Shown: piece after piece, positions 25,317-50,750 of the stretch
How the letters are laid out: each line of letters starts with the position of its first letter
Position numbering within the stretch: position 1 is the first letter of the stretch
Assembly: GCA_014239155.1 (NCBI GenBank)
Contig: JAAZZQ010000085.1
Coordinates: 248,001 to 312,000, forward strand
Source of the DNA: Lachnospiraceae bacterium
GTDB taxonomy: Bacteria > Bacillota > Clostridia > Lachnospirales > Lachnospiraceae
Direction: 5' to 3'
Length of the DNA: 64,000 nt
Position numbers and translations under genes: made by a program
Notes under the pieces: model-generated
Told to the model about the DNA's origin: nothing
The model's database searches: none
The model's input: the letters and a program-made list of their open reading frames with translations, nothing else

Positions 25317-25395
25317 ATAGTTACAAATAATGACCATGTATATTAAGAAGCGATTTTAAGTTTTTAAAAGCACTTTGGAAAGGCATGGTTTTTTT

Positions 25396-26040
25396 GTGGC
25401 AAATATTGTATTGTATTTAATGGCAAAACAAAATGTAGCTTTATCGAAATCTGATGTGGAGCTGAGCGATGTGGCAAGTGTCTACTGTGAGGATGAGACT
25501 GTCAAGGCAAAAGTGGAAGCATTAAAAATCCATCGATTTCGGCAGGATGGGCAACCGCGGGTAGTGGTTAGCATCCTAAAGATTATTGAGCAGATTACAA
25601 AGCTCTGCCCGGGGATTACCGTGGAAAGCATTGGTGAGACAGACATTATTATCCAGAAGGCATCTTTAGAACACGACAAACCTGAACAGAAGTATAGTTT
25701 GTGGTCATATATAAAAATTGGTATTGTAGCGCTAATTTGTTTTTTTGGCTCGGCATTTACAATTATGGCATTTCACAATGATGTTGGGCTTTCTGACGTG
25801 TTAAGCCGAATTTATGAGTTGGTGATGGGGGTGGAATCCGACGGATATACAGCGCTTGAGATCTCCTATTCCATTGGACTTGCTGTGGGAATTATTGTAT
25901 TTTACAATCATGTTGGAGGCAAGCGTCTTACTTCTGATCCAACACCGCTTGAGGTTGAAATGCGCAATTACGAGCGGGATGTCAATCAGGCAATTGTGGA
26001 GATGGCAGACAGGCAGAAACTGGAAGAGGATGTGGATTAG
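25396..26040 (+). CDS. spoVAA: Stage V sporulation protein AA
   Basis: A 214-residue protein. The N-terminal half is the SpoVAA soluble domain (KSDVELSDVASVYCEDETVKAKVEALKIHRF, then VVVSILKIIEQITKLCPGITVESIGETDIII), and the C-terminal half has two transmembrane helices. SpoVA proteins take up and release dipicolinic acid across the inner spore membrane. The start is placed at GTG 25396, 12 bases after GAAAGG; a TTG at 25375 gives a longer form without a ribosome site. The stop abuts the ATG of spoVAB. Confidence 0.88.
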   Translation: MANIVLYLMAKQNVALSKSDVELSDVASVYCEDETVKAKVEALKIHRFRQDGQPRVVVSILKIIEQITKLCPGITVESIGETDIIIQKASLEHDKPEQKYSLWSYIKIGIVALICFFGSAFTIMAFHNDVGLSDVLSRIYELVMGVESDGYTALEISYSIGLAVGIIVFYNHVGGKRLTSDPTPLEVEMRNYERDVNQAIVEMADRQKLEEDVD

Positions 26041-26490
26041 ATGATAGGGAAACTAATTTTGCTGTGGGTGATTGGCATTAGTTCGGGGCTTATGGTTTCG
26101 GCAGGTGTTTTTACTGTACTTTTTGTAGTGGGTTTGGTTCCGCGATTTGCAGGGAGAACAGATACTGCGTGGTGTGAAATTTTCTATGAAGAGTGCTTGA
26201 TTGGCGGCGCAATATTGGCAGATGTACTCAGTGTTTTTCCAATTGAGGGTTCATTTGGAAATGAATCGAATATATTGCTGACAGGGCTGCTTATTGTAAT
26301 TGGTATCTTTGCAGGGATCTTTGTGGGGTGTCTGTCGATTGCGCTGTCGGAGGTGCTTGACGGATTGCCGATTTTTGCTAGAAGAGTGCGGCTTAAAATG
26401 GGGGTAAGTATCACAGTTTTTGCAGTGGCAATTGGAAAGGTTGCGGGGGCAATTGTGTATTTTATAAATGGCTTTTATGAAGGAATTTAG
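26041..26490 (+). CDS. spoVAB: Stage V sporulation protein AB
   Basis: A 149-residue, four-helix membrane protein beginning immediately after the spoVAA stop. Family landmarks are the N-terminal SSGLMVSAGVFTVLFVVGLVPR, the central FPIEGSFGN region, GIFAGIFVGCLSIALSEVLDGLPIFARR, and the closing VAIGKVAGAIVYF. The GCLS-ALAEVL-V-PI-RR pattern is highly characteristic of SpoVAB. It is part of the DPA-transport operon; the ORF ends 13 bases before spoVAC starts. Confidence 0.9.
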   Translation: MIGKLILLWVIGISSGLMVSAGVFTVLFVVGLVPRFAGRTDTAWCEIFYEECLIGGAILADVLSVFPIEGSFGNESNILLTGLLIVIGIFAGIFVGCLSIALSEVLDGLPIFARRVRLKMGVSITVFAVAIGKVAGAIVYFINGFYEGI

Positions 26491-26503
26491 GGAGGATACA
26501 TTG

Positions 26504-26965
26504 ATGGCATCAGAACAGAAAAAAGAAGCATATCAGGAGTATGTGAAGCAAAATTCACCAAAGACAAATCTGCCATTACAGATGGGAAAAGCATTTATTA
26601 TGGGAGGCATTATCTGTTGTGTTGGACAGTTTATTGTCAATACGGCAATAAATCAGTTTGGCATTGAGAAAGAGACTGCGGCGGGATGGTGTTCCATGAT
26701 TCTAATTCTTTTGAGTGCGGTGCTGACAGGATTTAATTTATATGGAAAATTAGTGAAATGGGGCGGTGCGGGTGCACTTGTACCAATTACTGGATTTGCC
26801 AATTCCGTTGTGGCATCTGCGATTGAATACAAAACAGAAGGACAAGTGTATGGTATTGGATGCAAAATTTTTACAATTGCTGGTCCTGTAATTTTGTATG
26901 GAATTGTTACAAGTTGGGTGTTAGGAATTATTTACTGGATGGGAAAAATAATAGGATTTATGTAA
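26504..26965 (+). CDS. spoVAC: Stage V sporulation protein AC
   Basis: A 153-residue, four-helix membrane protein, in Bacillus a mechanosensitive channel for dipicolinic acid. Landmarks are the soluble N-terminus YQEYVKQNSPKTNLPLQMGKAF, GGIICCVGQF, and GGAGALVPITGFANSVVASAIEYKTEG, then GIGCKIFTIAGPVILYGI. ATG 26504 is chosen for the GGGAGG site 8 bases upstream. The operon ends here: spoVAD and spoVAE, which normally follow, are absent and a terminator and the convergent amylase gene come next. Confidence 0.92.
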   Translation: MASEQKKEAYQEYVKQNSPKTNLPLQMGKAFIMGGIICCVGQFIVNTAINQFGIEKETAAGWCSMILILLSAVLTGFNLYGKLVKWGGAGALVPITGFANSVVASAIEYKTEGQVYGIGCKIFTIAGPVILYGIVTSWVLGIIYWMGKIIGFM

Positions 26966-35621: not shown

Positions 35622-35649
35622 GAACTTATGAGAAGGGGGCATGTTCATC

Positions 35650-37605
35650 ATGTACGAAAACCAGAAGGGACTGATTTTTACAAATGACAGGTGCATTGGT
35701 TGTAATAAATGTATTTCAGTCTGTCCGGTCATTGTTGCAAACAGGGCTGTTAAGACAGAAGAAGGACTTCAGAGAATCGAGGTAGACGGCAATAAATGTA
35801 TCGCATGTGGTGCCTGTTTTGATGCGTGTGAACACAATGCAAGAGAATTTGTGGATGATACGGAAGAATTTTTTATGGCACTTGCAAAAGGAGAACGGAT
35901 ATCTATTTTATGGGCGCCTGCATTTGCTGCCAATTATCCAAATGAATATAAAAAAATCCTTGGCGGCTTAAAAAAGATGGGAGTAAATCGTATTATCAGT
36001 GTAAGTTTTGGCGCAGATATTACAACGTGGGGATATATTAAGTATATTTCGGAACACAATTTTACAGGAGGGATTTCCCAGCCTTGCCCAGCGATTGTAA
36101 ACTATGTGGAACACTACATACCAGAGTTGATACCAAAGCTTGTTCCAGTGCAAAGCCCACTTATGTGCGCTGCAATCTATGCAAAAAAATATCTGAATAT
36201 TACAGACAAATTAGCATTTATCAGCCCTTGTATTGCCAAAAAAGATGAGATTAATGATCCCAAAAACAAGGGTTATGTAAGTTACAATGTTACATTTGAC
36301 CATCTAATCCAATACGCGAGAAAGCATCATATCAAGGCAGAACCAGCACCAAATGAGATTGAATATGGGTTAGGTTCGATTTATCCTATGCCTGGCGGGC
36401 TGAAAGAAAATGTATACTGGTTTTGTGGTGAGCAAGTATTTATTCGCCAAATTGAAGGGGAAAAACATGCCTATGAATTTTTGGAAGACTACAAAAATAG
36501 GGTGCTCGGAGGAAAGAAGCTTCCATTTATGGTTGATGCGCTAAACTGTGCAAAGGGGTGTATTTATGGCACCGGGATAGAGGAGGAAAAGACAAAGACG
36601 GACGATATTCTCTATGAGCTTCAAGTAATCAAGGAGGCGAGCAAATCCAATAGAAGGGGCAGTGCATGGGCAAGGAGAGCGACGCCAGCACAAAGGTTAA
36701 GAAACCTCAATAGGCAGTTTGCACGGCTTGACATTAAAGATTTTATGCGTGAATATACAGATAAGTCAGATGGAAATAGGATACAGGTGCCAAATCAGTC
36801 AGAACTAAATACGATTTTTGCCGATATGAATAAGAATAATACAATACAACAGCATATTAATTGTAGTGCTTGTGGCTATAATACTTGTGTTGAAATGGCG
36901 ACTGCGATTCATAATGGGTGTAATAATAAAGACAGTTGTGTTCACTACATTAAAAATGTAGCGGAGGAGGAGAAGGAGCGCATTCAGGAAATCTCCTATG
37001 AGGTCGAAGCGAAGAATGAGGAGATGGCAAAGAAGAATGCGACAATTGAAGAGATGGTTGCAGAGGCCTACGGTGAATTTAACACATTGAATATTTCCAT
37101 TGATGAGATGATTGATGGTAATAATAACAATGCTGATGAAAGTACTAATATCAGTATGGCAATGTTAGAGGTCGTGAATTTCTGCGAGGATATGAGAAAA
37201 TCGTTTGGGGAGATTCATGAACTTTTGGAGCAGCTTGGAGGGAACAATGAGAATATTACAAAGGTAGCTGCCAAGACAAATCTTCTTTCTCTCAACGCTT
37301 CGATTGAAGCGGCAAGAGCTGGTGAAGTTGGAAAAGGATTTGCAGTAGTCGCGCAGGAGATTAAGACATTGAGTGATGTCAGCAGAAGTGCTGCGGACGA
37401 TAGCAGTAAGAATAAAGATCACATTGTGACAGCAATGACAAGGTTAATGGAGAGTTCAGAAAATCTAATGAAGATTGTAGATAATGTAAATGAACGGATA
37501 ACGAACCTAGCAGCAAGCACAGAGGAAATTGCCGCGTCTGCTACAATGATTGGGCAGGTGGCATCTGAGTTACATATGAAATTTGACCGAATTAAGGCAC
37601 TGTAA
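35650..37605 (+). CDS. [FeFe]-hydrogenase-like sensor fused to a methyl-accepting signalling domain
   Basis: A 651-residue cytosolic protein with four parts. Residues 10-65: a two-[4Fe-4S] ferredoxin ([26 protein letters not shown]). Residues 75-340: an [FeFe]-hydrogenase domain whose H-cluster motifs are altered: [12 protein letters not shown] (L1, usually TSCCP), [10 protein letters not shown] (L2) and [14 protein letters not shown] (L3). Residues 385-430: a Cys cluster [10 protein letters not shown] then CVHYIKN. The rest is a coiled-coil MCP signalling domain with [30 protein letters not shown]. This resembles putative sensory (group C/D) hydrogenases. Start ATG 35650 fits the GGGGG site; ATG 35641 is too close. 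Confidence 0.9.
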
Positions 37606-39526: not shown

Positions 39527-39991
39527 ATGAAAGTGATTGTGCATGACCTACAAGAAAAGTCATGGCAGGTACTCGGAATGCAGTTTCATGAGAAGGATAT
39601 TGTCATTGGGGAAAGCATGGAGACAGCTGAGAAGGATATAGAAAAATTGATTGGAAGTTGTCGTCAATTGGTGCTGATTAGTCGTTGTGTATATGGTGGA
39701 TTCAGTCCTTTTATTCAGGGGGTGCTCAATAAATGCAGAAGGCATTTTGGACCGTTTCTTGAGATGCGGCATGGTCAGACACACTATCAAGTACACAATG
39801 GAAATAAAAATGAATTTGGTATGGTTTGTTGCTTTTATGGAGACCAGATTACGGCGAAAGAGGAGCAGTCAGCAAGGATACAGTCTGTGTCTGATGGGAT
39901 TTCTCTTCAGGCAAGGGGAGTAAAGATTGTCTTTTATAATACTGTTGATGAGTTAAAAAACTGTAAGGAGCTGAGCAGTTTTTTTGCATAG
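39527..39991 (+). CDS. Flavodoxin / FMN-reductase-like protein (first of pair)
   Basis: A 154-residue protein with the NADPH-dependent FMN reductase pattern in the second strand: CRQLVLISRCVYGGFSPFIQGVLNKCRRHFGPF matches the common D-(I/V)V-aSPvYwG-sspqlKafiDR segment. The phosphate loop at the N-terminus (usually GSPR) is not obvious, so flavin binding is uncertain. ATG 39527 is 8 bases after GAAAGGG. The next gene begins 18 bases after it and is similar; they are probably a heteromer or consecutive duplicates. Confidence 0.7.
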   Translation: MKVIVHDLQEKSWQVLGMQFHEKDIVIGESMETAEKDIEKLIGSCRQLVLISRCVYGGFSPFIQGVLNKCRRHFGPFLEMRHGQTHYQVHNGNKNEFGMVCCFYGDQITAKEEQSARIQSVSDGISLQARGVKIVFYNTVDELKNCKELSSFFA

Positions 39992-40009
39992 TTGAAGGAG
40001 GTGGGCAGC

Positions 40010-40630
40010 GTGGTTCTGTTTCTGGATGGAGGGTGTGTATTGGCAAGAAATCAGGACTTCAGTGTGAGCAGTATGCGAAGTTATTTGCAACAAGAAGAGC
40101 TGATCACAGCTAAGATTACAGAGAACATGGACTGGAATAAAGTGTGTAGGTATCTGGAAGAGGCACAAGCGATAGTGTTGGCAGCAGATGTTTATCTGGA
40201 TAGTGTATCTTCAGAGGTTTTGAGATTTTTGGAGAAGGTTGAGCAGGCGGTGATTGACGGAGAGAGTATTGGAGCGACTTTCTATGCAGTTCTCTATACA
40301 GAACTGTATGAGGGAGAACAGACTTGCATCGCGATGGAAATCTTAAAAAACTTTTGTTTACGTGCAAATATTACATGGGGTAGAGGGTTGGGGATCGGGG
40401 GAAATAATCTGGAGACTGATTCTGATAAAAGCAGTTTGTGGAAACGGATGAGAAAACAAATGGTCGATTTTCGATTGGGTTTTTTACAAGAGCAAGCATT
40501 GTTTGTCCGAGAACGAATACAGGGAACTGATGTTTATATTCATCCTAAGGAGGTGTCAAGAAAAGCGTACATTCGGAAAATAAACCGTCGCGCAAAAAAA
40601 ATTAATCGCGTAAAAATCGCGCAAAATTAA
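40010..40630 (+). CDS. Flavodoxin-family-like protein (second of pair)
   Basis: A 206-residue protein. The segment EEAQAIVLAADVYLDSVSSEVLRFLEKVEQ again matches the second flavodoxin/FMN-reductase strand-helix, and ATFYAVLYTELYEGEQTCIAMEILKNFC the third. The C-terminus is very basic (KAYIRKINRRAKKINRVKIAQ). GTG 40010 is chosen for the AAGGAGGTG site 7 bases before it; the TTG at 39992 precedes the site. No reaction can be assigned. Confidence 0.65.
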   Translation: MVLFLDGGCVLARNQDFSVSSMRSYLQQEELITAKITENMDWNKVCRYLEEAQAIVLAADVYLDSVSSEVLRFLEKVEQAVIDGESIGATFYAVLYTELYEGEQTCIAMEILKNFCLRANITWGRGLGIGGNNLETDSDKSSLWKRMRKQMVDFRLGFLQEQALFVRERIQGTDVYIHPKEVSRKAYIRKINRRAKKINRVKIAQN

Positions 40631-40766
40631 AAAAATCGAGGAAATTATCATAAAAATATCAGCTCTTTCAACAAGAAAGAACAGCCATTTTTACGGGATT
40701 TTAACGGAATATGTGGAATTTTGACAGATGCTGTATTTTAAACGCAAAAAGTGCGAAAAGTAACTG

Positions 40767-40796
40767 TTGCAAGATAAATTGACATTCTTATATAAT
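40767..40796 (+). promoter_or_regulatory. Possible promoter of the truncated spo0A
   Basis: TTGCAA (40767-40772), an 18-base spacer and TATAAT (40791-40796). No other gene lies between this and the ORF at 40940. Confidence 0.5.
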
Positions 40797-40939
40797 GGAC
40801 ATTGCCAAATCCTGCTAGAATTTGTAAGTATACGTAAATTGGGAGTGATGTTTATAAATTCTTTAAGCCATGATTATGATTGGGAGACGTGATTTGGGTG
40901 GCATTTGGCAGTCAAATGATTGGAATGGAGGAGAAGTTA

Positions 40940-41485
40940 ATGGAACAGTTGAACGTAATGACACAGCAGGATAACGAGAAAATATTCAGAATTCTCAGCG
41001 ATTTATTAACGAAAGACAAGGAATTCCAAATAATGATCACAGTTCCGGCAGGTTCAAAGCTTACAGACAGTGACAATAGTTTGGTACAGAAGAAGACAGA
41101 TAGCAGATCCGAATTAAGCTTAGGGGAAAATGCGCATGATCTTGAGAAAGATGTTACAGATATGATACACGAAATCGGTGTACCTGCGCATATTAAGGGG
41201 TACCAGTATCTTCGTGAGGCGATTATGATGTCGGTGGAGGATATTGAGATGTTAAACTCTATCACTAAGATTCTTTACCCATCAATTGCAAAGAAATACC
41301 AGACAACACCAAGCCGTGTCGAGCGTGCGATCAGACACGCGATTGAGGTGGCATGGAGTAGAGGAAAAATGGAGACGCTCGACTCTCTGTTTGGATATAC
41401 GATCAATATCGGTAAGGGCAAACCGACGAACTCTGAGTTTATCGCCCTGATTGCAGATAAGATCAGACTTCATTACAGAGCATAG
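40940..41485 (+). CDS. spo0A: Spo0A-like regulator lacking most of its receiver domain
   Basis: A 181-residue protein; intact Spo0A has about 260. The last 120 residues are an intact Spo0A C-terminal DNA-binding domain: [40 protein letters not shown] then [13 protein letters not shown], and [20 protein letters not shown]. The first 37 residues ([20 protein letters not shown] onward) align with the start of the receiver, but the acidic pair is changed to QQD. The rest of the receiver, including the phospho-acceptor Asp and the Thr and Lys, is gone. ATG 40940 follows GGAGGAG. The usual neighbour spoIVB is absent; glgA follows. It may bind 0A boxes without phosphorylation. Confidence 0.9.
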
Positions 41486-41597: not shown

Positions 41598-43046
41598 ATG
41601 AAAAACATTTTATTTGTGGCTTCAGAAGGTGTACCATTTATTAAAACGGGGGGTCTTGCAGATGTTGTAGGTTCCCTTCCCAAATATTATGATAAGCGGT
41701 ATTTTGACTCGAGGGTGATACTGCCAAAATATATGTGTATGTCAGACAACATGAAATCACTGATGCAGTACAGAACACATTTTTATATGGATTTTATGGG
41801 ACAGAGCGAGTACGTTGGAGTACTTGAGGCACAGTATGATGGTATCACATATTACTTTATTGACAATGAGAAAATGTTCGGCGGATTTAAGCCATACAGT
41901 GATGACCATGTGGGTGAGATTACAAAGTTTGTATTTTTCTCAAAAGCAGCGTTATCGATTTTGCCAGTCGTTGGATTCCGGCCCGATATTGTACATTGTC
42001 ATGACTGGCAGGCAGCGATTATTCCAGTTTATTTAAAGGAACGGTTTGCGCAGGGTGAATTTTATAGAGGTATGAAGTCAATTATGACAATTCATAATCT
42101 TAAGTTTCAGGGAATCTATGACATCAAGACAATTCAAAATATTACAGGGCTTGATGGTTCGTATTTTGCACCCGACAAACTAGGATACTTTAAAGACGGA
42201 AATCTATTAAAGGGTGGGTTGACCTACGCAGATGCGATTACAACAGTGAGTGCGACCTATGCGGAGGAGATTAAGACAGATTTCTACGGAGAGAAGCTCA
42301 ACGGGCTTCTGACTGCGAGAACACATGATTTGAGAGGAATTGTAAATGGTATTGATTACAATGAATACAATCCAGATACAGACCAATTTATCGTACATCA
42401 CTACAATGCTTCCAATTTCAGGAAGGAAAAGGTTAAGAATAAGCGGGATTTGCAGAAACAGATTGGTCTTGAAGAGAATGACAAAAAGATGATGATTGGC
42501 ATTGTATCAAGACTTACAGATCAGAAGGGTATGGATCTTGTTGCATATATTATGGATGAGCTTTGCAGTAAAGATGACATCCAGTTGGTGGTGCTCGGCA
42601 CAGGAGAAGAGCGCTATGAAAATATGTTCCGTCATTTTGACTGGAAATATCACGGCAAGGTTTCCGCACATATCTATTATTCTGAGGAGCTTTCACATAG
42701 AATTTATGCCGCTTGTGATGCGTTTTTAATGCCATCTCTATTTGAGCCTTGTGGACTCAGCCAGTTGATGTCACTGCGTTATGGTACAGTTCCTATTGTG
42801 CGTGAGACAGGTGGACTGAAAGATACTGTGGAACCATATAATGAGTATGAAAATAAAGGTACAGGATTCAGCTTTGTAAATTATAATGCGCATGAGATGC
42901 TCAATACAATTCGCTACGCAGAACAAGTATATTATGACAGAAAGCGTGAGTGGAACAAGATTGTAGACAGAGGAATGGCAGTGGATTATTCTTGGGGTAT
43001 GTCTGCGATGAAATATCAAGAAATGTATGACTGGATGATAGGTTAG
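41598..43046 (+). CDS. glgA: Glycogen synthase
   Basis: GlgA transfers glucose from ADP-glucose to growing alpha-1,4-glucan (GT5). The 482-residue protein starts NILFVASEGVPFIKTGGLAD with the KTGGLADV motif binding ADP-glucose. It carries HCHDWQAAIIPVYLK, TIHNLKFQG, GIVSRLTDQKGMDLV and the C-terminal EPCGLSQLMSLRYGTVPIVRETGGL (E-x7-E nucleotide-sugar motif). Full length. The ribosome site AAAGGG lies 10 bases upstream. It is followed four bases later by rqcH, a likely read-through pair. Confidence 0.96.
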   Translation: MKNILFVASEGVPFIKTGGLADVVGSLPKYYDKRYFDSRVILPKYMCMSDNMKSLMQYRTHFYMDFMGQSEYVGVLEAQYDGITYYFIDNEKMFGGFKPYSDDHVGEITKFVFFSKAALSILPVVGFRPDIVHCHDWQAAIIPVYLKERFAQGEFYRGMKSIMTIHNLKFQGIYDIKTIQNITGLDGSYFAPDKLGYFKDGNLLKGGLTYADAITTVSATYAEEIKTDFYGEKLNGLLTARTHDLRGIVNGIDYNEYNPDTDQFIVHHYNASNFRKEKVKNKRDLQKQIGLEENDKKMMIGIVSRLTDQKGMDLVAYIMDELCSKDDIQLVVLGTGEERYENMFRHFDWKYHGKVSAHIYYSEELSHRIYAACDAFLMPSLFEPCGLSQLMSLRYGTVPIVRETGGLKDTVEPYNEYENKGTGFSFVNYNAHEMLNTIRYAEQVYYDRKREWNKIVDRGMAVDYSWGMSAMKYQEMYDWMIG

Positions 43047-45182: not shown

Positions 45183-48100
45183 ATGAAGAAAAGACTTAAA
45201 ACAATAGCTTTTATCGTATTATTTATGATGGTATTTTGTGGAGTTACTCCTGTAAATCTCGCAAAAAATACTAATAATAGTAACAATCATCAAACGATGC
45301 AAATCAAACCTGATTTAGAAGTCAAGAGCGCAGAGAAAAAAAATACTATAAAATCTAAAATGGATTTGTTTGTTGTAGGAAAATATAAAGAAGAACTTAC
45401 TGCGCAAATAGAGATAGGGCAACTTAGCACAGAGAATGAGGAAAAATGTATTATAAAATCAAAACAAACGCAATCAAATGTAGCCAGTGGCGGGCAAGAA
45501 AGCATTGCAGAACCAAGAGAAGAACAGATAATAACAGAGAGTCCTACAGAAGTTGAGTCAGAAAATATTACAGAAGCGGAATCAGAAAAAGAAGAATCTA
45601 CAGAAACGGAGTCAGAAAATATTACAGAAACAGAATCAGAAAAAGAAGAATTTACAGAAACGGAGTCAGAAAATATTACAGAAACGGAATCAGAAAAAGA
45701 GGAATCTACAGAAACGGAGTCGGAAAAAGTTACAGAAACCGAAACGGAAAAAGAAGAGTTTACAGAAACCGATCCAGAAGAGCCAGAACGATTTATTGAT
45801 GAAATAATGGTTCTTGGGGATTGCAACTGGAATGACAGTAAAAATTATTACTACACAAAACAAAACTATTTAGAAATTGAAGTTTGCATTATAAAAGAAT
45901 TTAATACTGCCAAAGAGATGACCGTGCAGATTGGCAAGAATGATTTGTATCTTTCTAATGATAAAAAGAATACCTATATAGGAGAAATTACATTGTTAGA
46001 AGGATGCAATAAAATTGAAGTTTCTTTCATGCTGGAGGGAAGAGAAAAAGACAGAAGCGAATTCACCATTATTAAGGATAGTGTTTTGCCTGTGATTACA
46101 AAGGTCGATAATAAAGAAATTGACAGTGGAAAGATTTATCAAAATAGAATAATTAAAGCAGGCGAAACAATTGTGTTTGAAATTAATGAGGAGGAATATC
46201 AAGCATCAGGAATTAGAGGAGTTAGAATATTAGACGCAAATGAGAAAGAAATAGGTTATTATATCAATATTAATGTAAATAAAATAACGTGTACTTTTAC
46301 AGAACCGCTCGCAAATATGATTCTGCAAGTTGTTGCAATAGATAATGCTGGAAATATAAGTGACAAACTGATGATTTTTTTAGACACAGAACCGCCAGAT
46401 ATTCAGATAACACCTTTTATTGTGGAGGATGTACACAGACGACTACTTTATAAAGAAACAACAGAAAATAACATTTGTAGAATTTACACAAACAAAGAAC
46501 ACATTTCTGCGGAGCTTGAAGTACAGGATAAAATTTCTGGAATTGTGACAGTGGAAGCAGTAATTGATGGAGTTATTATAGAGCCTGTTATTATGTCAGA
46601 TAATAGGGAAGAAATCATATCTTATCAATTTGATTTTGAGGTTAGAAAATCAGACACAATAACATATCTTATTACTGATTTTGCAGGAAATTGTACAGAG
46701 GCAGTATATGAAGTCTTTTTGGACAAGATAGCGCCAACATGGCGAATAGAAAAGAATGAGATAGAAACGATACAAAACAGAACATTTCAGATTCCTGTCT
46801 GTGAGAAAGAATCTGGAATTTGGAAAGCATATATTGAGAGAGAAGGAAAGAAGTTCTTATTGACACAAGGCGAAGAGGGATATGGATATACGTTTTCAGA
46901 GGAAGAAATTGATAAAAGTACAGAAAAAGTTGAGTATACATTGTATTTGATGGACAAGGCAGGGAACACTTTTACAGATTATTTTAGTCTGTTATTTGAT
47001 TTTACTGCGCCACAAATAGAACTTTCTGTTTATAAAAGTCAGGAGGATGGTGGAAATCCATTTTCTTGTGAGTTGTCTGGAACAATAGAACAATACTACA
47101 CAAATACAGACTGTAGAGTAGTTATTGCTGTTACAGACAAGACAAATGGTGGCTGTTTGTCAGAAGAAATTGCACTGACATTGTTGACAAAAGAAAACAA
47201 TGGAACACATTACTCAAAAAATTTAGAGTTAGTTGATGGTGTATGTGAATTTGTCGTGATGTTTTCCAAAAAGGAGTATATTCATAATAGGTATATATTG
47301 CGGGCTTGTGATGCTGTTGGCAACTATAGTGAATATACATTTGAAATAATATATGATTCGGCGAAACCTGTAATTTCGATAATAGAATTGGAGGGGGGAC
47401 TTGATAAAATATATCAAAACAGGCGACAGTTCCGTCTGCTTATAGAGGAACCTTATTTTTCTAAAAGTGATCTTGTATTTTTGCCAATTGGTTCCCAAAA
47501 AGAAGAAGTTCCAAAGGTTATCGGTTGGAGTACAGAGGGGATAAAGCATAGCGCAACACTTACTTTCTCAAATGATGGAGTATATTGTTTTGAAATAGTG
47601 TGTACAGATAAGGCAGGAAATAAATCTATTTATAAGATGGACAAGCTGGTGATTGATACCATTGCGCCTGATGTGACAATCTCTTATGAAAAAGAGGGGC
47701 AGGAACAAGGAATCTATTATAATCAACTGGCAACAATCACAGTGATAGATAAGAATTTTGACATTACACAAAATCCCGAATTGATTGTAATGCCAAAAGG
47801 TAAAAGTTCGGTTATTAGCAAATGGAAAAGGGCAAAAAATGCAGATGAATATACTTGCACAGTTCAGTTTGCAGAAGACGGTATATATCAGTTTCAATGC
47901 GCTTACAAGGATAAGGCAGGCAATATGTCCAGTATTGTAACTAGTGATATTCTGGTGATTGACCATACAGTTCCATTTATTCAGGCTTCCTATATAGATA
48001 AAAAAAGCAAAACAGGAATGAATCTAAATCCTTCGGGAATGTTGCGCCTTGAAATAACAGAAGAAAACTTTTCTGGAGAGTTTGTTGAGGTATTACTGTA

Positions 48101-50750
48101 CAACCAAAAAAATGCAAAGAAAACAAACTTAAAAGTTTCTTGGAAAAAAGCACAAAAGCATACATATAAAGCGACATACTGGATACAGGAAGATGGAATA
48201 TATCGTTTTACAGTAAGATGCAAAGACAAGGCAGACAATGAAGCAGAAGTTTATCAGAGTGAAATTTTTCTTGTTGACAGAAACAAACCAATTGTGGATA
48301 TCTATTATGAGGGAATAAAGCGGACAGACGATTGCTATAATGGTTCAAGAACAGCAAGAATCACAGTGCGAGACGTCTCTTTTAATGAAAATTGTACTAC
48401 AAATTTTAATATTACTCCTAAAAATATTCCTGTGACAATCAGTACATGGACAAAGAAGAGTATAGAACACACAAATGAATATGAGTATTCTTGTACGGTT
48501 ACTTTTGAACAAGATGGAGCGTACAGATTTCAATTTTCTTGTATGGATCAGGCTGGAAATTTATCGGATATTGTTCAGGGGGACAGGTTTATAATTGATA
48601 ATACTGCACCTGTTATTCAAATAGAGTTTGCTCATACAGAAATAAAAGATGGAAAAACTTATCATAGAACAAAGACAGCAGTTGTTAAAATAACAGAGCA
48701 GAATTTTGTCAAGGAAAATGTTTTTATTGAGCCAATTGGTTTAGCGGCAACCCATGTATTACCAACAGTGGGAGAATGGTCGTCGGATGGAACCATACAT
48801 AGTGCGACAATCGATTTTGCGGAGGATGGTCTTTATGGATTTCGTATTCAGTGCAGAGACAAAGCAGGCAATGAAGGAAAAATGGAATTGGAAAATGGAG
48901 GATTTTTTATTATTGATAGCACAGCGCCATCTGTGAAGATTGTATACAATAAGGATACTTTAAAAAATAATACATATTACAATGTGCCGCGGACAGCGAA
49001 AGTGATTGTGACAGATGTTAATTTTGATGAGCATTGTGAGGTAAATTTTGATTTTGGTGCAGAGAACATAAGACCAAAAATTGGTAAATGGAGACAGGAG
49101 GGAACAGACTATATTTGTGAGGTGTTTTTTGAAAAAGATGGGGAGTATCATTTTGAATTTTTTTGCAAAGATAAGGCAGGTAATCTGTCAAATACCATAG
49201 ATGGTGGTAGTTTTGTCATTGATTTAATAGAACCACAAATTTCAGTGTCTTTTGACAACAACAATGTCAAAAATGAAAAATATTACAATGATTCGAGAAC
49301 CGCAACCATTACAATTGTGGAAAGAGCTTTTTCAGAGCAACTTGTCCAGATAAAGGCATTAGATATAGCAAAAATAGATAGGGTTCCTGTTGTAAGCCAA
49401 TGGAAGACAGACGGGAAACAACATACTGCTACAATAAATTTTACCGAGGAAGGGGTCTATGGATTTCAGATAGTTTGTAGGGATTTGGCAGGAAACAGTG
49501 CAAAGAATTATATAAGTACAGTTTTTGTTATTGATAAGACAGCTCCGCAAATTACTTTTGAGGGGGTGCGCGCAAACTCTGCCAACCGTGGTGTTGTAAT
49601 GCCAGTGGTAAACTATACGGATTCTTTTTTAGATGAGTCAGCGACAACAGTGACGCTTACAGGAACAAATCACAGTGACCAGACAGCAAATGCACAAAGA
49701 AGTGTGATTGCAGATGGGATACGATTGTCTTATCCCGATTTTGCACATATAAAAGAGATGGATGATGTTTATACATTGAAGATAAAAGCAGTAGATTTGG
49801 CAGGAAATGAGAAAGAGGAGGAGATTAGTTTTTCTGTTAATAGATTTGGATCAACCTATAAAATTAGTGTAGATACCCAACAACTAATTGACAATTATTA
49901 TACAGCAAAAGCGCCTGTGATAACAGTTACAGAAGTTAATATTGATGTGTTGGAATATGGAGAAGTTACTGTTAGCAGAGATGGGCAAATTAGAACCCTT
50001 GTACGTGGAAAAGACTATAATATTACCAAAGAAGGTGTGGATACGGACTGGAAATCTTATACATATAAGATAAAAACGGATAATTTTTCTTCGGATGGCA
50101 TCTATTCAATAGGATTTTATTCTGTTGATAAAGCCCGGAATGCATCAGACAATCGTATTAAGGGTAAAGAAATAGAGTTTGTATTGGATACAACAGCGCC
50201 TAGCATTGTGGTTGATGGCATAGAATCGGGTGGGATTTATACAGAACGGCAGAAAAAGGTTACATTGGATGTAAAGGATAATCTGTGTCTTGCAGATTTG
50301 CAGGTCACAGACAATGGGGAAACTATACTAAGTATGTCAGGGAAAACGCTGTCAGAGAAAAATGGCATTGTTACGTTTCTTTTGCAGGAGAAGGATGCAG
50401 AGCGGGAGATTGTTATTACAGCTAGAGATAAAGCAAAGAATGAGCAGAAACAGATGTTTGATGGAGTGTTAATATCTTCAAGAAAGGAAGTTATTCACAA
50501 GAATGCCGTGAAAAAAACAAAAAATATTAGAAAAGGAATGGCAGAAAAAAATATAGAAGTCGATACGGCAATGGAGTCTGCGACAGAATATACGGATGGC
50601 CTAACAATGCCAATTTATGAAAAAGAGAACTATCTGTTGTATGGTGTCAGTACTGTTATGATAGTTGCAGTATTGATGACAGCAGGGATTGTTCAAGTGA
50701 GAAAGAGGCGACAAAAGAAACAGAAAAAATCAGGAGGAAGCAATGCTTGA
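45183..50750 (+). CDS. Giant Ig-repeat surface protein, 1855 residues
   Basis: Signal peptide about residues 1-27 (TIAFIVLFMMVFCGVTPVNL). Residues about 120-205 are a Thr/Glu/Ser-rich stalk built from 18-residue units (ESENITETESEKEESTET). The rest is about 14 Ig-like beta domains of 90-100 residues. Each ends with a strand (Y/F)xFxxxCxDxAGN (for example FEIVCTDKAGNKS, FQFSCMDQAGNLS) and enters the next with (V/I)IDxTAPxI. A C-terminal TM helix (YGVSTVMIVAVLMTAGIVQV) and a basic tail (RKRRQKKQKK) anchor it; there is no LPXTG motif. Its stop overlaps the start of a Ser/Thr kinase gene by 8 bases, suggesting a joint function such as adhesion sensing. Confidence 0.85.
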   Translation: MKKRLKTIAFIVLFMMVFCGVTPVNLAKNTNNSNNHQTMQIKPDLEVKSAEKKNTIKSKMDLFVVGKYKEELTAQIEIGQLSTENEEKCIIKSKQTQSNVASGGQESIAEPREEQIITESPTEVESENITEAESEKEESTETESENITETESEKEEFTETESENITETESEKEESTETESEKVTETETEKEEFTETDPEEPERFIDEIMVLGDCNWNDSKNYYYTKQNYLEIEVCIIKEFNTAKEMTVQIGKNDLYLSNDKKNTYIGEITLLEGCNKIEVSFMLEGREKDRSEFTIIKDSVLPVITKVDNKEIDSGKIYQNRIIKAGETIVFEINEEEYQASGIRGVRILDANEKEIGYYININVNKITCTFTEPLANMILQVVAIDNAGNISDKLMIFLDTEPPDIQITPFIVEDVHRRLLYKETTENNICRIYTNKEHISAELEVQDKISGIVTVEAVIDGVIIEPVIMSDNREEIISYQFDFEVRKSDTITYLITDFAGNCTEAVYEVFLDKIAPTWRIEKNEIETIQNRTFQIPVCEKESGIWKAYIEREGKKFLLTQGEEGYGYTFSEEEIDKSTEKVEYTLYLMDKAGNTFTDYFSLLFDFTAPQIELSVYKSQEDGGNPFSCELSGTIEQYYTNTDCRVVIAVTDKTNGGCLSEEIALTLLTKENNGTHYSKNLELVDGVCEFVVMFSKKEYIHNRYILRACDAVGNYSEYTFEIIYDSAKPVISIIELEGGLDKIYQNRRQFRLLIEEPYFSKSDLVFLPIGSQKEEVPKVIGWSTEGIKHSATLTFSNDGVYCFEIVCTDKAGNKSIYKMDKLVIDTIAPDVTISYEKEGQEQGIYYNQLATITVIDKNFDITQNPELIVMPKGKSSVISKWKRAKNADEYTCTVQFAEDGIYQFQCAYKDKAGNMSSIVTSDILVIDHTVPFIQASYIDKKSKTGMNLNPSGMLRLEITEENFSGEFVEVLLYNQKNAKKTNLKVSWKKAQKHTYKATYWIQEDGIYRFTVRCKDKADNEAEVYQSEIFLVDRNKPIVDIYYEGIKRTDDCYNGSRTARITVRDVSFNENCTTNFNITPKNIPVTISTWTKKSIEHTNEYEYSCTVTFEQDGAYRFQFSCMDQAGNLSDIVQGDRFIIDNTAPVIQIEFAHTEIKDGKTYHRTKTAVVKITEQNFVKENVFIEPIGLAATHVLPTVGEWSSDGTIHSATIDFAEDGLYGFRIQCRDKAGNEGKMELENGGFFIIDSTAPSVKIVYNKDTLKNNTYYNVPRTAKVIVTDVNFDEHCEVNFDFGAENIRPKIGKWRQEGTDYICEVFFEKDGEYHFEFFCKDKAGNLSNTIDGGSFVIDLIEPQISVSFDNNNVKNEKYYNDSRTATITIVERAFSEQLVQIKALDIAKIDRVPVVSQWKTDGKQHTATINFTEEGVYGFQIVCRDLAGNSAKNYISTVFVIDKTAPQITFEGVRANSANRGVVMPVVNYTDSFLDESATTVTLTGTNHSDQTANAQRSVIADGIRLSYPDFAHIKEMDDVYTLKIKAVDLAGNEKEEEISFSVNRFGSTYKISVDTQQLIDNYYTAKAPVITVTEVNIDVLEYGEVTVSRDGQIRTLVRGKDYNITKEGVDTDWKSYTYKIKTDNFSSDGIYSIGFYSVDKARNASDNRIKGKEIEFVLDTTAPSIVVDGIESGGIYTERQKKVTLDVKDNLCLADLQVTDNGETILSMSGKTLSEKNGIVTFLLQEKDAEREIVITARDKAKNEQKQMFDGVLISSRKEVIHKNAVKKTKNIRKGMAEKNIEVDTAMESATEYTDGLTMPIYEKENYLLYGVSTVMIVAVLMTAGIVQVRKRRQKKQKKSGGSNA
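45555..45770 (+). repeat. Four tandem 54-bp units in the surface protein stalk
   Basis: Units start at 45555, 45609, 45663 and 45717 and each encodes ESE(N/K)(I/V)TE(T/A)E(S/T)EKEE(S/F)TET. The first three are nearly identical, so the copy number could change in frame. Confidence 0.85.

Follow-up and report, generated by a model that had tools for sequence, protein, structure and literature searches.

In the sad67 allele of Bacillus subtilis, the receiver of Spo0A is deleted in frame. This laboratory allele is described as constitutively active: it turns on early sporulation genes, while efficient sporulation needs a second condition (PMC4689505). Phosphorylation of Spo0A is regarded as the key sporulation switch in bacilli and clostridia (PMC3533761). 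The isolated DNA-binding domain of C. difficile Spo0A binds DNA of abrB, spo0A and sigH in vitro, and DNA of spoIIAA, spoIIE and spoIIGA with low affinity (PMC3485338). Furthermore, truncated Spo0A homologues consisting of an effector domain without receiver have been reported from phages (Schwartz et al. 2023, PMC10294663). The presence of spo0A has served to classify gut genomes as sporulating or not (PMC8340488, PMC11536998), and surveys of sporulation loss scored the gene as present or absent (PMC8340488, PMC11170972, PMC11536998).

We analysed a window of 64,000 nucleotides from a Lachnospiraceae genome, which carries a short spo0A gene of 181 amino acids (40940-41485, + strand). The open reading frame starts with ATG at 40940, preceded by GGAGGAG, and its stop codon ends at 41485. 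The encoded protein has three parts, all on the + strand: a conserved N-segment (residues 1-36, beginning with MEQLNV; 40940-41047), a variable linker (residues 37-66; 41048-41137) and the Spo0A DNA-binding domain, which includes a 21-residue helix (residues 67-181; 41138-41482). In the Pfam search, residues 72-175 covered the Spo0A_C profile completely (PF08769, positions 1-104 of 104, 7.4e-47), and the crystallised Spo0A C-terminal domains 1fc3 and 1lq1 aligned end to end with residues 67-181. The protein also scored above the cut-off of the Spo0A model TIGR02875 (207.8 versus 200 bits), with a match spanning only profile positions 129-260 of 262.

The short form shares its DNA-binding domain with full-length Spo0A of Bacillus and Clostridia, and is orthologous to it by synteny within the Lachnospiraceae, but it differs in the receiver. 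Only the start of the receiver, about 36 residues before the linker, could be aligned; the later strands and helices are missing, and so is the stretch with the phospho-acceptor Asp56, which is invariant across the 12 full-length receivers in the alignment. The N-segment comprises the remains of receiver beta1-alpha1 and a 10-residue core, which may be a remnant of receiver beta2 or may have arisen by fusion to beta4. These results bear out the sequence-only reading, which had described a nearly textbook C-terminal domain in a protein without the phospho-acceptor Asp. An in-frame TTG at 40880 would give a possible frame of 201 amino acids; the added residues are leader-derived and not part of a receiver. 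In the AlphaFold model, most of the DNA-binding domain was confident, a helix at residues 12-24 was of low confidence, residues 38-63 were disordered (pLDDT <50), and no confident fold was obtained for the N-segment.

The short form is widespread among the relatives of this bacterium. Within its genus, 37 of the 38 genomes had a Spo0A_C match whose open frame measured 174-247 amino acids, the longest ones extending into the leader; the remaining genome (G020, 85% complete) had only the small Spo0A_C protein described below. No receiver was found in the proteins from 30 of these 38 genomes. In the family, Spo0A_C was found in 171 of 250 genomes (249 genera). Among the family matches listed, at least 19 other genera had frames of 179-223 amino acids, and most others had frames of 260-380 amino acids. 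The number of 19 genera is a lower bound, because the best-scoring matches were listed and weaker ones were not. Loci were compared for 30 of the 38 genus genomes (one locus per genome) and for the 19 other genera, whose loci were picked for their short frames. The standard N-segment was present in 18 of the 19 other-genus proteins, and none of the 19 had a receiver. The remaining one (genome G266, locus L032) has a different deletion, in which a beta5-alpha5-like stretch is retained. A scan of GTDB r220 with the N-segment alone yielded at least 187 relatives, of which 80 were retained; all 80 were short forms, which says nothing about frequency because the scan selected for the N-segment. They include the type strain Kineothrix alysoides KNHs209, Lachnospiraceae A4, D16-50, IMSAGC_011 and MAGs labelled Acetatifactor; the genus Kineothrix may be one of the 19 other genera. 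A sequencing or assembly error hiding a receiver was rejected as an explanation, since the gene is receiverless in 30/30 genus loci and in the 19 loci of 19 other genera. The comparison of orthologues at the glgA locus, as proposed in the sequence-only reading, thus found the short form to be common to the relatives.

The gene downstream of the short spo0A, at a distance of 112 bp, is the glycogen synthase gene glgA (41598-43046, + strand; NF001898, 608.6 bits), which synteny identifies as the ancestral downstream neighbour of spo0A in Lachnospiraceae. In the full-form loci of 20 genera, glgA was found downstream of spo0A in all 20 and directly downstream in 19; in the remaining locus (L062, genome G191), a second full-length spo0A lies in between, giving two adjacent copies ahead of glgA. 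Upstream of full-length spo0A, we found recN-spoIVB in 14 and nadK-argR-recN-spoIVB in 10 of the 20 loci. Among the short loci of other genera, glgA lay downstream in 18 of 19 and directly downstream in 17; two open reading frames intervened in L047, and L037 had no glgA. For the 80 GTDB short loci (80 of at least 187), these arrangements were seen directly downstream for glgA in 76, with a contig end as one of the misses, and just upstream for spoIVB and recN in 7. The complete order recN-spoIVB-short spo0A-glgA, with an intact upstream spoIVB, was found in G261, G233 and Kineothrix, and recN-spoIVB also in six more GTDB loci. The names of the recN and spoIVB neighbours were checked for G261, Kineothrix and the full-form locus L042. 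Judged from this gene order, the short spo0A is the native spo0A, and its adjacency to glgA is ancestral in Lachnospiraceae.

To the left of spo0A, the genus often has two genes without Pfam or NCBIfam match in place of spoIVB. In the window, two such consecutive genes (154 and 212 amino acids) occupy 39527-40630, and they are found upstream of spo0A in many congeners; the second of them had a dN/dS of about 0.14, on 7 pairs only. The spoIVB gene of this genome is located elsewhere and is intact (417 amino acids). It had been noted from the sequence that spoIVB is absent beside spo0A, which is correct and reflects the rearranged left side. The suggestion of a second copy that had been attached to this absence is not supported, since the gene occupies the ancestral spo0A-glgA site and the only other Spo0A_C gene found in the genome encodes a small isolated protein.

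A six-frame Spo0A_C search of the assembly (4.57 Mb, 98.4% complete) gave matches in two places, the short spo0A and an isolated Spo0A_C protein of 122 amino acids, and no full-length Spo0A. This genome-wide search had been recommended in the sequence-only reading. In the assembly of K. alysoides that was searched, a full-length Spo0A was likewise not found. We also searched with a Spo0A-receiver profile derived from the receivers of 12 full-length Spo0A proteins of Lachnospiraceae. In four full-form genomes, this profile reached 194-218 bits, and the best other matches in these genomes reached 67-82 bits. The best match per genome in eight short-form genomes was 64.7-85.3 bits. Because these scores are at the level of ordinary response regulators, no split-off Spo0A receiver is evident from the profile search in any of the eight short-form genomes.

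The protein of 122 amino acids (L051:6352-6720, minus strand of contig C78) has no receiver, carries a diverged recognition helix TTDKQVERAIRNAIETAW and adjoins a family-2 glycosyltransferase. A small Spo0A_C gene is present in 37 of the 38 genus genomes, and in Kineothrix (L157) a small Spo0A_C gene likewise lies beside a similar glycosyltransferase. It appears to encode a second Spo0A paralogue with a DNA-binding domain only. In three congeners (G012, G013 and G017; loci L003, L008 and L027), the receiverless form is duplicated: each has an additional short Spo0A whose N-segment differs, and no glgA was found beside it within the 3.3 kb examined.

In the GlgA tree, the standard short form constituted a single clade (26 of 47 rows, SH-aLRT 98), with G266 apart from it. 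A single clade of all short forms was not rejected by the AU test (p 0.53), and in the tree of SpoIVA and GlgA combined all 20 short-form rows fell in one clade (SH-aLRT 99). These 20 rows represent 17 other sampled genera (G266 included), two genomes of the same genus, and Kineothrix. The AU test and the combined tree were run without the long-branched full-form genomes G142 and G191, and the combined tree also lacks G210, which had no SpoIVA match, and G132, whose locus has no glgA. In view of the AU test and the combined tree, we do not claim two independent receiver losses on account of G266. A shortened SpoIIE marks the same genomes as the short Spo0A.

Selection within the genus was estimated by pairwise Nei-Gojobori comparison of 26 loci; of the 30 genus loci, a near-copy (L017) and the three extra short copies (L003, L008, L027) were left out. 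The dN/dS ratio was lowest in the DNA-binding part (0.008), followed by GlgA (0.018) and the N-segment (0.034), and highest in the linker (0.53). Pairs were restricted to 0.1 < dS < 1.2 region by region, so the set of pairs differs between regions (86, 68 and 54 for the regions of short Spo0A and 26 for GlgA, out of 325 possible). Hence, the relaxed selection of a pseudogene was not seen outside the linker. The selection test that had been suggested for the DNA-binding part points to purifying selection, and the low values of this part and of the N-segment speak against a "decaying" regulator. Neither is the N-segment "vestigial", as had been proposed: apart from its low dN/dS, its 10-residue core was exactly conserved in 24 of the 30 genus loci and in 11 of the 19 other-genus loci. 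QIxI was present in 17 of these 19 loci, and KEFQIM in none of 20 full-length Spo0A proteins. Given these counts, we dropped the idea of an invariant core; the core was invariant in 20 sequences, among them 19 of 71 other distinct short proteins, but the patterns of the source scan ([DN]KEFQIM and DN[EK]...IL) select for it.

The likely promoter of the short spo0A (40752-40796, + strand) consists of an upstream element TGCGAAAA (40752-40759), 7 bp, TTGCAA (40767-40772), 18 bp and TATAAT (40791-40796); no chance estimate is attached to it. In most congeners, the upstream element is replaced by TGCGATAA. The arrangement TGCGATAA-N7-TTGNAA-N17/18-TATAAT was found upstream of spo0A in 11/11 genus loci; allowing up to four mismatches, 13/19 loci of other genera had it. 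It also occurred in 5/20 full-form loci (L052, L055, L058, L066 and L068). Because these five full-form loci carry the same arrangement, it is partly ancestral, and we rejected it as a control site peculiar to the short clade.

In B. subtilis, the spoIIG promoter carries 0A boxes and its spacer is unusually long. Action of Spo0A at spoIIG is indicated by the titles of references cited in the literature. Within 300 bp upstream of spoIIGA, a promoter of the form TTGACA-N21-TATAAT, with at most two mismatches in all, was present in 14/14 short-form and 4/6 full-form genomes. Chance would give this 21-bp spacing in 0.39 of 14 genomes, and each other spacing in the range 15-24 bp occurred in 0-2 of 14. 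Inspection by eye showed a GTCGA core in 12/14 short-form and 3/6 full-form genomes, placed 25-42 bp upstream of TTGACA; these counts come with no chance estimate. The exact 0A box TGTCGAA was found near the spoIIGA starts of 6/14 short-form and 4/6 full-form genomes, and was absent upstream of both spoIIGA and spoIIAA in the genome under study. At spoIIAA, where several starts were set by eye, a single exact box turned up among 17 short-form regions, located 17 bases into the gene from the start used; 3 full-form regions had none.

Many sporulation genes are retained alongside the short Spo0A, some of them shortened or scoring below cut-off. Across 32 short-form genomes (the genome under study, 11 congeners, 19 other genera and Kineothrix), SpoIVA, SpoIVB over its cut-off, a shortened SpoIIE and SASP were each found in 31; the misses for these four proteins fell in G210, G035, G222 and G120. 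SpoIIIAE and SpoVAC were each present in 27/27 short-form and 6/6 full-form genomes. The number of SASP copies was one in short forms versus 1-3 (mostly 2) in full-form genomes. SpoIIIAE scored 70-163 bits in short forms (104 bits in the genome under study) versus 127-196 bits in full forms, and none of the 37 genomes searched had a match reaching its cut-off. The SpoIIE cut-off was passed by one of 52 genomes, a full-form one, and the SigF cut-off by 6 of 30 (1/18 short forms and 5/12 full forms). Judged from these counts, the models of these three proteins are strict for Lachnospiraceae, and short forms score lower. The SpoIIE match started at profile positions 410-429 in 31/31 short forms (frames of 388-495 amino acids). 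Among 20 full forms, 19 had starts at position 6 or at 271-315, and one (G271) at 417 in a frame of 595 amino acids. Short-form SpoIIE (e.g. L164:3655-4908) thus comprises the phosphatase end and part of the middle, whereas most full forms keep about 100 more profile positions.

In the genome under study, we read and named spoIIAA-spoIIAB-sigF, spoIIGA-sigE-sigG, spoIIE and yabQ. Its SpoIIAB, SigE, SigG (NF006071), YabQ, SpoIIGA (Pfam) and SpoIVB passed Pfam or NCBIfam cut-offs; SigF, SpoIIAA, SpoVAC and SpoIIGA stayed under those of NCBIfam. The window itself contains, on the + strand, spoVAA (25375-26040; PF12164, 6.1e-26), spoVAB (26041-26490; PF13782, 2.1e-30) and spoVAC (26468-26965; PF03862, 2.7e-42; TIGR02838, 156.8 bits, just below the cut-off of 164). 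The proposal of a lineage losing sporulation finds no support in these gene sets: the tested spore genes appear to be retained in this genome and in the short-form clade, some of them shortened or diverged. The shortened SpoIIE, the single SASP and the low scores could represent either partial loss or a remodelled programme.

We favour, with a probability of about 0.65, the interpretation that the short protein is a native, phosphorylation-independent Spo0A that still addresses sporulation genes, and whose control has moved to the level of Spo0A or to a partner of the N-segment; its action on DNA is taken by analogy from isolated C-terminal domains. Most of the phospho-receiver would have been deleted long ago in a large clade of Lachnospiraceae that retained the DNA-binding domain and the N-segment. 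The isolated Spo0A DNA-binding domains of C. difficile and B. subtilis bind 0A boxes unphosphorylated, but they are artificial fragments whereas the short Spo0A is a natural product (PMC3485338). If it behaves as they do, the short Spo0A would always be competent to bind 0A boxes, and the idea of phosphorylation-free action, raised from the sequence, is plausible. A similar activity is known from sad67, a laboratory allele rather than a natural, clade-wide form. The short Spo0A would still switch on early sporulation genes such as spoIIG, and it might be controlled through its abundance, its turnover, or contacts of the N-segment with a partner or in a dimer. Because it lacks Asp56, the decision to sporulate would be set elsewhere, and the clade probably takes this decision by a route not yet described. 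Whether sporulation entry as a whole has been rebuilt is evenly balanced in our judgement: the output of the phosphorelay would have been abandoned, the receiver replaced by an N-terminal module, SpoIIE cut back, and control transferred to transcription or to a new partner of Spo0A.

The strongest competitor, though an improbable one, is a loss of sporulation in the clade, under way or complete, with a receiverless Spo0A serving other regulation and the remaining spore genes as relics or an incomplete set. It would account for the shortened SpoIIE, the single SASP, the low scores of SpoIIIAE and SigF, and the displaced spoIVB in the genus. It also agrees with a predictor that called all 24 Lachnospirales MAGs of one host set, the genus Acetatifactor included, non-sporulating (PMC12536801); the same article cites the description of K. 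alysoides for sporadic sporulation in certain strains. However, spore genes are retained in the genus, in 19 other genera and in Kineothrix, the spacing of the spoIIG promoter is kept in 14/14 genomes, and SASP, SpoIIIAE and SpoVAC are each absent altogether from four of four Spo0A-negative Lachnospiraceae. Moreover, since the short-form rows form one clade, loss of sporulation would require many recent events.

Spo0A controls storage polysaccharide in clostridia. This role, together with glgA as the close downstream neighbour here and in most GTDB loci, would suit a short Spo0A that now acts mainly as a glycogen regulator on glgA. We consider this quite unlikely, because full-length spo0A also adjoins glgA and the adjacency is therefore uninformative about a new task; a direct link between short Spo0A and glgA is possible. 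Somewhat less likely again is a split Spo0A gated by a separate receiver protein, perhaps through the N-segment. The strongly selected N-segment could be a docking element for such a receiver, but all eight short-form genomes gave only scores of ordinary response regulators, with a profile that could miss a diverged receiver. Hardly credible is a second copy or a phage-derived Spo0A_C gene inserted at glgA. Receiverless Spo0A is indeed carried by phages (PMC10294663), and 14 phage records matched the short protein. However, the closest three of these matches, at 82-87 percent, are confined to residues 66-181 and thus lack the N-segment; one phage record, at 33 percent, extends into it. The short spo0A, unlike these phage genes, sits at the native spo0A locus of its host, with glgA and an NFACT/RqcH-type gene in the neighbourhood, and the conserved synteny, with recN-spoIVB in relatives, contradicts an insertion. 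Nor was a full-length copy of Spo0A found elsewhere in the genome.

Receiverless Spo0A is already known from phages and laboratory constructs, and a natural native form conserved across a clade is apparently new. In the open-licence PMC papers searched, we came across no description of such a gene at the native spo0A locus of these bacteria. If our interpretation of a native, phosphorylation-independent Spo0A is correct, its co-occurrence with retained spore genes would imply that the phospho-input is dispensable in evolution. The clade would then offer a natural experiment on the re-wiring of a developmental decision, and Kineothrix alysoides, which is in culture, could serve for tests. Among gut bacteria, calls based on the presence of spo0A may lump together two Spo0A proteins that differ in function.

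Two other genes of the window are worth recording. At 35641-37605, a [FeFe]-hydrogenase-like domain is fused to the signalling domain of a methyl-accepting chemotaxis protein, possibly a hydrogen or redox sensor. Furthermore, positions 45183-50750 encode a protein of 1855 amino acids that, read by eye, looks like a large surface protein: repeats rich in Glu, Ser and Thr lie near the N-terminus, and the C-terminus may hold a membrane anchor.
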